27,791 nt of DNA from positions 1 through 27,791 of IMG/VR virus record IMGVR_UViG_3300025626_000104; one strand, given 5' to 3'. The translations under genes were made by a program, and so were the position numbers. Below the pieces are notes generated by a model. It saw nothing but the letters and a program-made list of their open reading frames with translations, ran no database searches and was not told the DNA's origin. The stretch is from a virus. Below, in pieces: positions 5,588-9,718 of the stretch (positions are counted from its first letter, which is position 1; each line of letters opens with the position of its first letter).

Positions 5588-6550
5588 TTATCTTATTAAG
5601 GTTACTAATAATCCAAGTGGTTGTATAATCACTGGGTTGTCTGATTTGATTGCTGGAAGTGTTAAAGCATTAACATCTTCGTTTGATGTGATCCATGCAG
5701 ATATCTCTACCCTATTAAGGAAAGTTCTACCTACTGTACCTTGACCGTAGAATATAGGCTGTGCAGTTAACGGAAACGTAAAAGTAATATCATCACTATC
5801 ATTCCTGTTAGAGTACCATAAAGCTGGCTCTACAGTTGTGTTAGCAATCTGAGGTATAACGTTAAAGTCAAACCTTACTCTTAGTTGATCTCCGTATACA
5901 GCGTCATTCAATCTTATTCTACCAGTAGTACCTTCAAATCCAGTTCCTGTAGAGGATGGATAGTTAGTATCATAATCGTAGTCAAACTCAAACAACTTAG
6001 TTACGTTGGCTGGTAGGTTAGCTCCTTGAAATAAACCTATACCAGTGTTTCCAGTAGGAGTAGGTGTAGACCAATAAGGGTTATCTACAGCAGCGTGTAC
6101 TGCTTGGCTTAATGAAAATACTTTCCATTCTGCTGCATCAACATCTGCCTGAGTGTAAGATAAACCAGCTCCTGATTCCCATACATAGTTATTATCTAAG
6201 GGCTTATCAGCGAATGCACCAGTGTGACTATATCCAGACTCGCCAGCCGTAAAGGTAGCGTCAGCTGGAAGGTATCTATCTCCCACCTTAGCATCTATTT
6301 CTTCAGCTGTTTCGTATTCTGACACAAAGTCACCTTGAATAGCTTCAGTTATATTTAAGTAATCGTCATTAGTGATTCCTCCCTGTAGTATGAATATCTT
6401 TTGCTCAGATACGACATAGGTCTGTAATCCTTCATATCTAGCAGACGCAGGAATAGCATCTCTTGCAGCTAAATCAGCGCAGACTAGACGTGAGTCAATA
6501 GGTTCGTTTGACTGGACTCTAAATCCAGATAGTATGTCGTTATATGCCAT
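5588..6550 (-). CDS. Tail fibre or adhesin protein
   Basis: A 320-residue protein. Its first 60 residues (FRVQSNEPIDSRLVCADLAARDAIP, then RYEGLQTYVVSEQKIFILQGG) fit a module I know from many phage structural proteins: a small domain with 'RY.Gl..YV...k.y.L..G'. The remainder is beta-rich without cysteine-based or catalytic motifs. The N-terminal module is likely a virion attachment domain and the C-terminal half the exposed part. Its leader upstream of ATG is A-rich without a Shine-Dalgarno. It lies between the glycosyltransferase-like gene and the large adhesin, which supports a fibre role. The exact position on the virion is unknown. Confidence 0.6.
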   Translation of the reverse strand: MAYNDILSGFRVQSNEPIDSRLVCADLAARDAIPASARYEGLQTYVVSEQKIFILQGGITNDDYLNITEAIQGDFVSEYETAEEIDAKVGDRYLPADATFTAGESGYSHTGAFADKPLDNNYVWESGAGLSYTQADVDAAEWKVFSLSQAVHAAVDNPYWSTPTPTGNTGIGLFQGANLPANVTKLFEFDYDYDTNYPSSTGTGFEGTTGRIRLNDAVYGDQLRVRFDFNVIPQIANTTVEPALWYSNRNDSDDITFTFPLTAQPIFYGQGTVGRTFLNRVEISAWITSNEDVNALTLPAIKSDNPVIIQPLGLLVTLIR

Positions 6551-6568: not shown

Positions 6569-7462
6569 TTATAGGAATACTCCCTTAAAATGTTCTCTTC
6601 TCTCTACCATGTAATTAAGGTATAAGTCCATCTTTGATTTCCAATCATTATCTACATTAGGATTAAAAATCCCACAGTGGAAAGAACTTAGTATTTTATT
6701 TAATTGCGGAATACGAGATTCCTTTGGAGTTCTAAGTATGTGCTGGTTAAAGTGCCAAAAAGCAGCTTGCCAGTGTTTGCCTAATTTATCAACTACATCT
6801 ATATCCTTACCTAGCATTGCTGCATACAACATAGACTCACTGTAATGAGTAGTATAAACTTTCTTAGATTTAACCATCATCTCATATAGATCATGATCTC
6901 TATCTAACACATTATTTTCTCCACATTTATCTTTCATAAAACCTACATACTCGTGAGTAGTTAGAGGGTGAGGCTTTATATAAGAAGTTCCATCTTTAGT
7001 TACTTCTATCAATTTCTGAATATCCATGACATCCATAAATTTATTAGTCCCCATAGGTACTACAATAGAATGTCTACCAACTTTATTAGCAGACTTTCTG
7101 TTGCTATACTTGTTAGCAGACTTTTCTGCTATAACTCCAGAGTAGTAATTATCCCACCTTAATGTTTTAGAATTAGGATCTAGTAAACTATCTAGAATCA
7201 TATCTCTTCTCACGTCATTATTTAACGGTTGAACCATAAAATTAGTACCCCACTCTGTATATGATAGTGTTTGAAACGAAGGGTTTTGAACTGCAGTAAC
7301 ATCATAAGATGCTTCGAATCCTAAAGATTCAGCTTGGTGAAAGAAGTAATCTTCAACCTCTTTTAATACATCTAGCTTTACAGTTTTCTGTAATCTATCC
7401 CCTACTCTTTTCTTATGCTCTTTAATATTGAACATACTCATTCTTTCTTCTTTTGTTTCCAT
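6569..7462 (-). CDS. Glycosyltransferase-like protein (capsule-synthesis type)
   Basis: A 297-residue, non-repetitive, charged protein, unlike its beta-rich neighbours. The C-terminal half has HSIVVPMGTNKF (131-142), then YIKPHP (161-166), then DLYEMMVKSKKVYTTHYSES (191-210) followed by MLYAAMLGKD (211-220). This 'K.HP ... s..v.t..S....A...GK' order is typical of GT-B-like capsule polysaccharide transferases (Capsule_synth/Kps-type, CDP-glycerol and polysialyltransferase-like proteins), where it binds the nucleotide-sugar. The N-terminal half is short for a full GT-B. Its ATG shares a base with the stop of the Thr-rich repeat gene upstream (TAATG), suggesting co-production. A second possible start is Met8. 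The substrate is unknown; glycosylation of the neighbouring virion proteins is my inference. Confidence 0.6.
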   Translation of the reverse strand: METKEERMSMFNIKEHKKRVGDRLQKTVKLDVLKEVEDYFFHQAESLGFEASYDVTAVQNPSFQTLSYTEWGTNFMVQPLNNDVRRDMILDSLLDPNSKTLRWDNYYSGVIAEKSANKYSNRKSANKVGRHSIVVPMGTNKFMDVMDIQKLIEVTKDGTSYIKPHPLTTHEYVGFMKDKCGENNVLDRDHDLYEMMVKSKKVYTTHYSESMLYAAMLGKDIDVVDKLGKHWQAAFWHFNQHILRTPKESRIPQLNKILSSFHCGIFNPNVDNDWKSKMDLYLNYMVERREHFKGVFL

Positions 7463-7917
7463 TATATATTAGTATAAAAGCTCTTTGTCATAGTTGTTGT
7501 AAATGAAGTTGGATACAGTGTTGAAGCTGTATATGTACTTGATGTTGCAAATGTACTACTAGTGTTAAAGTCAGTACTAGTAGCTTTCAATGTCTGTATA
7601 GTAGAGCTTGTGTTGAAGTTAGTAGTAAAAGAGGTTGACACTGTTGCATTAGTAGCAAAAGTAGTTGAAGTCCCATATGTAGTTGTGGTAGCTCTACTTG
7701 TACTGTGACCCTTAGTAGTATTGAAAGAAGTGGTCGTAGATTTAGAGGTGCTACCTGTATAGGCAGTGGAATAACTAGTAGTGTAACTTGTACTGTAACT
7801 GGTAGTTCCAGCTGTGTTAAATGTAGTGCTAAAAGTAGTTACATGACTAGTAACAACATTACCCATAGCCGTATTTCTACTTGTAATCCTTGTAGTTAAT
7901 CTATTAGTAAACGGCAT
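7462..7917 (-). CDS. Thr/Ser-rich repeat virion protein 2
   Basis: A 151-residue protein made mostly of Thr, Ser, Ala, Asn and aromatic residues. Aromatic-x-Thr units recur at F29, F33, Y41, Y45, Y49, F65, Y81, F87, F97, F101, F117 and F123. Spacing is often 6 or 10 and sums to 16 (F65-Y81-F97 and F101-F117). Residues 117-140 show clean six-residue steps (FNTSST, FATSST). There are no catalytic motifs, no signal peptide and no cysteines. It is a close structural relative of the preceding 165-residue protein. Similar repeats occur in tail proteins of other marine phages as far as I recall. It probably forms an elongated beta-structured fibre or spike and may carry O-linked sugar. Function is not established. 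Confidence 0.65.
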   Translation of the reverse strand: MPFTNRLTTRITSRNTAMGNVVTSHVTTFSTTFNTAGTTSYSTSYTTSYSTAYTGSTSKSTTTSFNTTKGHSTSRATTTTYGTSTTFATNATVSTSFTTNFNTSSTIQTLKATSTDFNTSSTFATSSTYTASTLYPTSFTTTMTKSFYTNI

Positions 7918-7943
7918 AATTATTTATCTTTATATGTTAATGA

Positions 7944-8441
7944 TTATTCAAAACCTCCAGGTCCACCTTCACCTCCATCAGAAAAGTAGTAGGTCTGGAA
8001 TGCAGTAGCATAACTAGTACTTTGAGTCGAAGCAGTATTGTAGTAAGTAGTGTAAGATCCACTTGAAGTAGTACTTATTGTAGTAGCTTTACTAGTTGTC
8101 TTAGAAGTTGTTTTACTGGTTGTACGAGTCTTAGCTGTACCATATGAGGTAGTTGTCGATCTACTAGTCCCAGCAGCGTAATACGTATTAAAAGTTGTAG
8201 TTGTACTATGAGAAGTATTAAACGATGAGCTAGTGTTAAATGTAGTATTCGCTGAGGTGCTTACAGTGGAAGACGTACCAAACGTTGTTAATGTATTTTT
8301 AAGCGTGTTAAATGCTGAAGACGTACCAAACGTTGTAGTGTAATCAAAATTAGTAACCTTTTGCGTATTAACTGCATAAGTAGTATTAAAAGTAGTAGTA
8401 GTTAACCACTCGTAAAGTTTTGAAAAGGCTATATTTCTCAT
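7944..8441 (-). CDS. Thr/Ser-rich repeat virion protein 1
   Basis: A 165-residue protein, the larger twin of the next gene. After a short non-repetitive start (MRNIAFSKLYEWL), 'FxTSS' units recur at F38, F44, F54, V60, F68, F74, F84 and Y100, with 6- and 10-residue steps making repeats of about 16 residues. A TSKTTSKTTSK stretch (about 108-118) adds positive charge. The protein ends in DGGEGGPGGFE, a glycine-rich tail like those of some phage fibres. At DNA level a 20-bp exact repeat 48 bp apart shows duplication of one 16-codon unit. It starts one base after the stop of the upstream fibre-like gene. Likely a surface fibre or spike; function is unproven. Confidence 0.65.
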   Translation of the reverse strand: MRNIAFSKLYEWLTTTTFNTTYAVNTQKVTNFDYTTTFGTSSAFNTLKNTLTTFGTSSTVSTSANTTFNTSSSFNTSHSTTTTFNTYYAAGTSRSTTTSYGTAKTRTTSKTTSKTTSKATTISTTSSGSYTTYYNTASTQSTSYATAFQTYYFSDGGEGGPGGFE

Positions 8442-8442
8442 A

Positions 8443-8805
8443 TTAAGTAAAGTTTCCTATGTAGTTAGTTAATATTGTAGTGCTGTTGACAATGTAGTAA
8501 GACAGCATAGCAGTGTTACCCGAAGTATTGTTCCATACAGCAGTATCGCCATTAGGAGTCTTAAACTCACTAGGCATTGTTGGTGTTGAAGTTGTTCCTG
8601 AATTAGTAATAACTAATACTCCAGACTTACCTTCGTTACCAGATATGTTTGACAAGGATAAGCTCCATGCTCCAGTAACTGATAAGTGATGGTTGACAGC
8701 AGTATCGAAGTCAATAGAACCTGTTGTAAGAGATTCCACACCCATAGAAGTTGCATCTACATCTTCTTGAGTAACCTTTGGAAATATGTCTAATATATTT
8801 GGCAT
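8443..8805 (-). CDS. Small fibre-like protein with MPN..IFP start
   Basis: A 120-residue protein beginning MPNILDIFP, which matches the start of the upstream 282-residue protein (MPNLKTIFP). The shared start suggests a common docking segment on the virion. The rest (NHHLSVTGAWSLSLSNISG, ...GVLVITNSGTTSTPTMP..., then STTILTNYIGNF) is beta-rich and resembles small distal domains of phage fibres. No enzyme motifs were seen. It sits between a duplicated UUCG hairpin and the Thr-rich repeat genes, inside the adhesin block. A role as a fibre or accessory decoration subunit is likely but not proven. Confidence 0.5.
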   Translation of the reverse strand: MPNILDIFPKVTQEDVDATSMGVESLTTGSIDFDTAVNHHLSVTGAWSLSLSNISGNEGKSGVLVITNSGTTSTPTMPSEFKTPNGDTAVWNNTSGNTAMLSYYIVNSTTILTNYIGNFT

Positions 8806-8869: not shown

Positions 8870-9718
8870 TTAGTTTATACCCATAAGAGCCCATCCAGTA
8901 GTACCATCAATGTAAATTAGTTCGAAGTTAGCAGTAGCGTCATTCAATACTAAGTCACTAGTAGAACCTTGAATAGGTTGTGCATTACGAGCGATAACAG
9001 TGTCAGTACGACCTGACAAGTTTACAATCTTTACCCAAGCTCCAACAGCTGGAGAAGCAGGCAAAGTATAAGTTACAGTTTGTGTAGCTCCAGGAATAAC
9101 ACGAACAGCGTTAGCAACTAGAGTTTGGTTAGTGTCAGCAGCAGAAGTAGCAGTAACATCATAAGCAATAGGAGCATGGTCAGCTACACTAATGTTAATC
9201 TGGTCACTGTTAGAACCGTCAGCAGAGATTTCAAATTCGTCAGAGAAGTTAAGTACTCCTAAGCTACCAGAAGTAGAAGGAACAGAAGTCTCGTTTAATT
9301 CGATAGAAAGATCATTGTTGATAGTTCCACCAGTCATAGATATACCTACACCACCTATTACATTTACGTTACCTACCTCTCTCCAGTCACCAGAAGCAGA
9401 AGCTCCAGCAGAAGATTGGTTAGTTCCAACGTAGATTAAAGATACAGTTGCAGGAGTTCCATCAGCATCAACAGTAACGATAGCAATATCCCCTTTGTTG
9501 TACTTGTTAGTAGATACTGCGTAGAATTCAGTTAAAGAAGCAGCTTGAGTATCTTCGTTAGAATCAAAAGCAAATGTGTTTCCAATTTCAATAACAGGAA
9601 GTTTTGAAGATGGAATGAGAGATACGTCATCTCCTTTAGCCCAAGTTGATACTTGTGCAGCTCCAGTTCCGAAATCATTTGGATCTAGTCCTGGAAAAAT
9701 AGTTTTTAAATTTGGCAT
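8870..9718 (-). CDS. Fibre-like protein with shared C-terminal module
   Basis: A 282-residue protein starting MPNLKTIFPGLDPNDF, related to the start of the next gene. The middle is Ser/Gly/Thr-rich beta sequence (GGVGISMTGGTINNDLSIEL) like phage fibre shafts. The C-terminal 70 or so residues (TLPASPAVGAWVKIVNLSG...LVLNDATANFELIYIDGTTGWALMG) form a module also present at the end of the 471-residue protein upstream, where it reads PLPANPLPGDVVHVSNLSG...LVLDDETSSFSLVFINPTLGW. Such modules occur at the tips of phage fibres. The gene is followed by a UUCG hairpin, as is the capsid gene, which may indicate abundant expression. It could be a fibre or a head decoration fibre. Confidence 0.55.
   Translation of the reverse strand: MPNLKTIFPGLDPNDFGTGAAQVSTWAKGDDVSLIPSSKLPVIEIGNTFAFDSNEDTQAASLTEFYAVSTNKYNKGDIAIVTVDADGTPATVSLIYVGTNQSSAGASASGDWREVGNVNVIGGVGISMTGGTINNDLSIELNETSVPSTSGSLGVLNFSDEFEISADGSNSDQINISVADHAPIAYDVTATSAADTNQTLVANAVRVIPGATQTVTYTLPASPAVGAWVKIVNLSGRTDTVIARNAQPIQGSTSDLVLNDATANFELIYIDGTTGWALMGIN

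Follow-up and report, generated by a model that had tools for sequence, protein, structure and literature searches.

Based on the analysis of a virus record from IMG/VR (IMGVR_UViG_3300025626_000104) and its relatives, we propose that a module shared by very different tailed phages probably serves to coat part of their own tail fibre with sugar. The record, which we call the window (27.8 kb; 27,791 nucleotides), is siphovirus-like, and its terminase is approximately 36% identical to the terminase of Bacteroides phages. The module would be a dedicated virion-glycosylation system composed of a fibre adaptor, a Thr/Ser-repeat (T/S) fibre element and a glycosyltransferase, affecting attachment, and we put the probability of this reading at roughly 70%. 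Its basis is the gene structure, the reciprocal co-occurrence of the genes, their joint gain and loss, the predicted GT-B fold of the enzyme and its conserved motifs. In the window the genes are transcribed from the minus strand in the order 120-aa gene, T/S protein A, T/S protein B and 297-aa enzyme gene:

8870..9718, minus strand: upstream fibre-like structural protein, 282 aa, whose C-terminal part matches phrog_31104 (context)
8443..8805, minus strand: fibre adaptor, 120 aa, a gene of its own in the window (HMM of nine such domains, this one included)
7944..8441, minus strand: Thr/Ser-repeat protein A, 165 aa, 47% T+S, T:S ratio 2.0 (ORF map, composition)
7462..7917, minus strand: Thr/Ser-repeat protein B, 151 aa, 54% T+S (ORF map, composition)
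7460..7464, minus strand: TAATG, in which the stop codon of B and the enzyme's ATG have one base in common (sequence)
6569..7462, minus strand: glycosyltransferase-like enzyme, 297 aa, predicted GT-B fold, phrog_26179/30602 family (HMMs, AF2 model)
6965..6976, minus strand: KPHP motif, enzyme residues 163-166 (K163, H165, P166 and T168 invariant)
5588..6550, minus strand: fibre/tail protein directly 3' of the enzyme, 320 aa, whose N-terminus matches the tail protein phrog_25379 (context)

Two adjacent Thr/Ser-repeat genes and an enzyme gene starting at TAATG had been described in an earlier note on this DNA, and all three open reading frames were confirmed at their place. Judged from the sequence, the TAATG overlap likely couples the translation of T/S protein B and the enzyme. 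The same overlap (-1) is found in Lullwater, and an overlap of -4 in BL199, L010 and L017.

The co-occurrence of the two gene families in other phages, by which the earlier note wanted its proposal to be judged, proved near complete in both directions. In the forward test, ORFs were mapped at 93 enzyme loci, and clustering of the enzymes at 70% identity gave 23 groups. In 22 of these, a same-strand T/S-repeat gene lies zero to one genes upstream of the enzyme. The upstream gene consists of 38-62% T+S in 18 of the 22 paired clusters. In Cr30, L023 and L025 it is a repeat rich in Thr, Ser and Tyr (27-30% T+S), and in L021 the T/S frame was masked by an overlapping ORF and recovered by translation. 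Stenotrophomonas phage DLP_6 is a true exception, having the enzyme and no T/S gene in the 1.8 kb upstream, where the record begins. For the reverse test, IMG/VR was scanned with a DNA pattern for TTTTFNT, built on the repeat alone to avoid circularity, and a T/S ORF was defined by at least 38% T+S and at least 90 aa; this pattern favours marine-type repeats, which make up most of the sample. The enzyme followed within about 4 kb downstream in 38 loci, 19 loci were too short downstream and one, L140, seemingly had no enzyme. In L140 the enzyme turned out to follow a tandem pair of T/S genes, and therefore all 39 decidable loci (a T/S gene plus at least 2.5 kb downstream) were paired. A further 30 loci had no qualifying T/S ORF. 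The enzymes from this test formed 30 clusters, 26 of them new in comparison to the forward set.

Altogether the enzyme families were seen in more than 100 IMG/VR loci, and tandem T/S genes before the enzyme were found in the window and L140. The isolates that carry the pair include the T7-like podoviruses Lullwater, Quill and BL199 and the myoviruses Cr30 and KVP40, to which the siphovirus-like window is added. In KVP40-type phages the pair adjoins QueC, radical-SAM and nadV genes and not tail genes. HTVC008M was an expected carrier, and neither gene was found in the 14.0-109.0 kb part of its record.

The composition of the T/S proteins is not due to chance, as none of 178 other ORFs of at least 80 aa, from one representative locus per enzyme cluster, reached 35% T+S. 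The T/S proteins gave nothing in BLAST or in back-translated scans (low-complexity filter, degenerate repeats), and their kinship was therefore judged by composition, position and the HMMs of neighbouring genes; as the repeat is too degenerate to align, it is by composition and position that they are classed together as one kind of protein. Their length ranges from 116 aa in Cr30 to 1474 aa in marine contigs, where the gene is cut by the end of the locus, and the repeat gene of KVP40 (KVP40.0254) has 49% T+S. The single-sequence AF2 model of T/S protein A was uninformative (pLDDT 34), so we claim no fold for the repeat. An even spacing of hydrophobic residues, as expected of beta strands, was discarded as an argument, being significant in some marine T/S proteins only and not in those of the window. 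N-glycosylation sequons are, by inspection, little above what the composition implies. For a sugar on the repeat protein, O-linkage would be the likelier arrangement. In Quill, the annotated T/S gene (Quill_5.2, L006:3355-3909) stops early and the T/S reading runs on in another frame to a TAATG shared with the enzyme; as the reading resumes there, we take this as a frameshift, either an error or real variation.

The system is bigger than the earlier note had it, with an adaptor domain belonging to the module in one clade. A related domain of about 110 aa ends the gene before the T/S gene in nine loci (L010, L011, L012, L015, L017, L018, L021, L023 and L025), and the same domain precedes the T/S gene in Cr30, the Caulobacter podophages and the window, where it is the 120-aa gene. 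An HMM of nine such domains, the window's included, was run on all fetched loci and matched 35 ORFs. For 33 of them the very next ORF has 27-64% T+S; the other two are in L021, with its T/S frame under another ORF, and L131. The marine and KVP40-type phages have no adaptor, and an N-terminal region is found on the T/S protein itself instead. The enzyme tree splits along this same line with a support of 95/93.

Among the Caulobacter podophages of the Percy cluster, the genes were seen to be gained or lost jointly. The tail fibre measures 408 aa in BL199, BL198 and ERS, which also carry the enzyme and a T/S protein of 217 aa, whereas Percy and KSC have fibres of 1013 and 1054 aa and neither cassette gene, with two small unrelated genes at that place; downstream, Percy and KSC share about 82% DNA identity with BL199. 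The first 290 or so residues of the BL199 fibre, a T7-type anchor, are 50-56% identical to the Percy and KSC fibres (56% for Percy), and the end of the fibre is a domain with 33% identity to the fibre end of the myovirus Cr30, which infects the same host and in which the fibre likewise precedes a T/S gene and the enzyme. The more distant phages Cd1 and Babayka have fibres of 679 and 692 aa and neither cassette gene. From these comparisons we conclude that the cassette swaps as a unit and accompanies the loss of the long distal fibre. A published genome comparison of these phages mentions no glycosyltransferase, and the host ranges given there are not simply split by the cassette (PMC11053796). 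The earlier note had supposed that the phage coats its fibres to evade binding or to engage lectins; the short-fibre podophages point instead to a repeat protein that replaces the distal fibre. As the cassette accompanies a shortened fibre, we consider attachment, with low confidence, a likelier role than that of a pure shield. A GDSL-type esterase is also encoded near the endolysin in cassette carriers (BL198, L220:7946-9619; Lullwater, L003:9956-11410), and the genes near that place are shorter in Percy and KSC, the one in Percy having no Pfam match.

The window enzyme matches phrog_26179 (4e-28, residues 10-294) and phrog_30602 (3e-7, residues 117-292), both annotated as unknown function only, and both were matched by all 34 relatives tested. 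With tblastn it showed 22-27% identity to proteins of the Caulobacter phages Cr30, Lullwater, Quill, BL199 and others, and the same range in KVP40-like Vibrio phages. Two IMG/VR profile scans gave 13 and 141 relatives, 80 of the latter being kept. No relative was found when 84,980 genomes of bacteria and archaea were scanned with an 11-sequence enzyme profile; this is weak evidence for absence, since the scan rests on one short pattern. A Pfam search with the window enzyme gave zero matches, including to Capsule_synth, Glyco_transf_52 and polysialyltransferase, and the best scores among 34 family members were weak (Capsule_synth 6e-4 in three members, GT52 6e-4 in one, polysialyltransferase 0.03 in two).

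Conserved positions were scored in 24 representatives less than 70% identical, and a further alignment contained 34 sequences. Ten positions are invariant in all 24 (D54, K118, Y119, G138, N140, K163, H165, P166, T168 and G264); position 208 is Ser in 21 and Thr in the remaining ones, and E209 is present in 23. The earlier note had read a KPHP...S/T...GK signature in the enzyme, of which KPHP held and GK did not, as the family conserves K-x-H-P-x-T, G-x-N and S/T-E. When a counterpart of the general-base Glu was sought, D54 was found as an invariant acidic residue of the N-terminal half and so a possible candidate.

An AF2 model of the enzyme built from 11 relatives reached a pLDDT of 83.9 and a pTM of 0.83. 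In VIA-align its best matches were all CMP-Kdo transferases, namely KpsC (GT107; Z 10.1 over 220 residues), WbbB (GT99; 9.5) and KrkA (GT140; 8.3), followed by a bacterial polysialyltransferase (Z 7.5) and mostly by matches of about Z 6-7, and Foldseek likewise ranked WbbB (7.5e-4) and KpsC (9.5e-4) best. The 297-residue protein thus has glycosyltransferases as its nearest neighbours, and a match to another kind of fold, which the earlier note had named as grounds for giving up its proposal, did not appear. The structural alignments have 8-14% identity. By sequence, the family profile had KpsC as its first PDB match, a weak one (E 0.21), aligned across the HP and downstream Ser/Thr motifs. In the GT99, GT107 and GT140 Kdo transferases the catalytic nucleophile is an Asp in a conserved QXXXD motif (PMC12887879, PMC9587256). 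The strand before the HP motif carries no invariant Asp in our family, and since the invariant G-x-N (G138, N140) replaces QXXXD there, membership in these three families was rejected; the presumed acceptor is different as well. The enzyme has a GT-B-like predicted fold, an HP histidine and a Ser/Thr motif, as in the HP-motif (CMP-sugar) class of GT-B enzymes, although its matches to glycosyltransferase families by sequence are all weak and the fold is a prediction. A GT-B fold with an HP-type donor site is well supported, and a CMP-sugar would be the likeliest group for such an enzyme to bind and transfer.

The main rival for the enzyme family is modification of the host O-chain. The enzyme would then alter the host surface (LPS or capsule receptor), as serotype-converting phages do, and mask the receptor of the fibre against superinfection or against re-adsorption of progeny to debris. 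The nearest predicted folds, being those of LPS and capsule Kdo transferases, agree with this, the pair tracks the type of tail fibre, and the glycosyltransferases in the host-recognition cluster of pelagimyophages have been read as modifiers of host O-chain or LPS (PMC7029224). However, a change of the host surface leaves the constant low-complexity T/S partner unexplained, which is found across differing fibres and hosts and often in overlapping reading frames, and a late structural gene position would be odd for an early surface change; we consider this rather unlikely. The enzyme gene also stands where tail-fibre chaperone genes are usually found, and a protein with a glycosyltransferase-like fold and no transfer activity, which helps the T/S fibre to fold or acts as a chaperone in its assembly, would fit the strict pairing and the absence of the Asp nucleophile motif of its nearest fold relatives. 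This is unlikely too, as the invariance of the donor-site-like residues K163, H165, P166, T168 and N140 in all 24 representatives is unexpected for a pure chaperone, and in L012-L018 the T/S gene and the enzyme are separated by an extra small gene, a possible chaperone instead. Transfer of another CDP- or CMP-linked group to Thr/Ser, such as glycerol phosphate, as a phospho-decoration of the virion is very improbable: the CDP-glycerol polymerase TagF is the fifth row in Foldseek, but its TM-scores are at most 0.29, it is absent among the 50 VIA-align matches listed and the Kdo enzymes lead.

Returning to glycosylation of the virion, the best explanation we can infer is that the enzyme uses the repeat proteins as its sugar acceptors. 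The T/S-repeat protein would be part of the virion as a long, Thr-dominated distal element of the tail fibre, docked on the tail by the adaptor, which is a separate gene in the window and fused to the fibre in relatives; in the second clade the T/S protein itself would bear an N-terminal anchor in place of the adaptor. The enzyme would be a soluble GT-B glycosyltransferase of the CMP-sugar (HP-motif) type, made by coupled translation, and the overlapping frames of the two genes fit a matched production. Acting in the cytoplasm of the host, it would put sugar on the numerous Thr/Ser hydroxyls either ahead of virion assembly or while this is under way, and as the cytosol is also the site of assembly an export system would not be needed. 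The likeliest donor would be a CMP-activated ulosonic acid supplied by the host. Nearly all bacteria with LPS make CMP-Kdo, and many make CMP-nonulosonates; supply by the host would explain how the cassette can work in small phages that have no genes for sugar synthesis. The glycosylated element would then replace the distal part of an ordinary tail fibre and so affect attachment. More tentatively, this may be a general strategy in which the receptor-contacting end of the fibre is a densely sugar-coated, mucin-like Thr/Ser tether, so that the glycan and not a folded domain contacts host lectins or the host surface, and which replaces the receptor-binding domain and moves as a cassette between podo-, myo- and siphoviruses.

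Several other genes were observed next to the pair. Directly after the enzyme, L011 (5851-6678) has a 275-aa ORF that is sulfotransferase-like by eye (NSMGKAGTHLVKN), with no Pfam match at 0.1, which could modify the sugar further. Marine contigs (L045:5483-6403, L037:5852-6853 and equivalents) have a conserved gene of 306-358 aa after the enzyme, a candidate second modifying enzyme; Pfam gave no match for the two that were scanned. A 160-190-aa gene (MLYxRxN...EFP) separates the T/S gene from the enzyme in L017 (4513-5004), L012-L016, L018 and L023, and a 55-83-aa coiled-coil-looking gene does so in marine contigs (L045:4448-4615 and equivalents); a similar small gene precedes the enzyme of DLP_6 (L008:1664-1837), with no T/S gene seen. 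A small CxxC-type protein follows the enzyme in L012-L015 and L017. The marine contig L127 has two adjacent enzyme copies, and the marine phage contig L092 has a Coq4-like gene (6871-7560; 1e-6) two genes after the enzyme.

The closest mechanistic precedent, by analogy, may be the Maf and Caulobacter FlmG proteins, which transfer CMP-nonulosonate in the cytosol directly to Ser/Thr of flagellin and belong to chromosomal flagellar systems. The Gram-positive serine-rich repeat adhesins also have a low-complexity Ser/Thr acceptor gene beside the gene of a dedicated cytosolic glycosyltransferase. These adhesins are cell-surface proteins with an export system and the UDP-GlcNAc enzymes GtfA/GtfB, whereas the module is encoded by phages, with no export genes seen, more Thr than Ser and an enzyme of another fold group. 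As in phage virion-glycosylation systems, the enzyme is encoded by the phage, beside or among the structural genes. In mycobacteriophage virion glycosylation (Freeman et al., 2023, as cited in PMC12619734), a phage-encoded glycosyltransferase is likewise proposed to act on the phage's own virion proteins; the acceptors described there are the C-termini of capsid and tail-tube proteins, in contrast to the dedicated Thr/Ser-repeat protein that is genetically paired with the enzyme here. The earlier note knew of no phage system of this form, and in the open-access literature we similarly found no description of the pair or of a link between phrog_26179/30602 and T/S genes.

Under this proposal, two phage families that are annotated as unknown function and are present in the well-studied KVP40, Cr30 and Caulobacter podophages receive a function that can be tested, and close relatives among the Caulobacter phages that differ in the cassette form natural pairs for such tests. 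It also offers an alternative reading for at least some of the glycosyltransferases of host-recognition clusters, which so far have been taken as modifiers of host LPS (PMC7029224). If true, phages would own a mucin-like glycoprotein fibre system.
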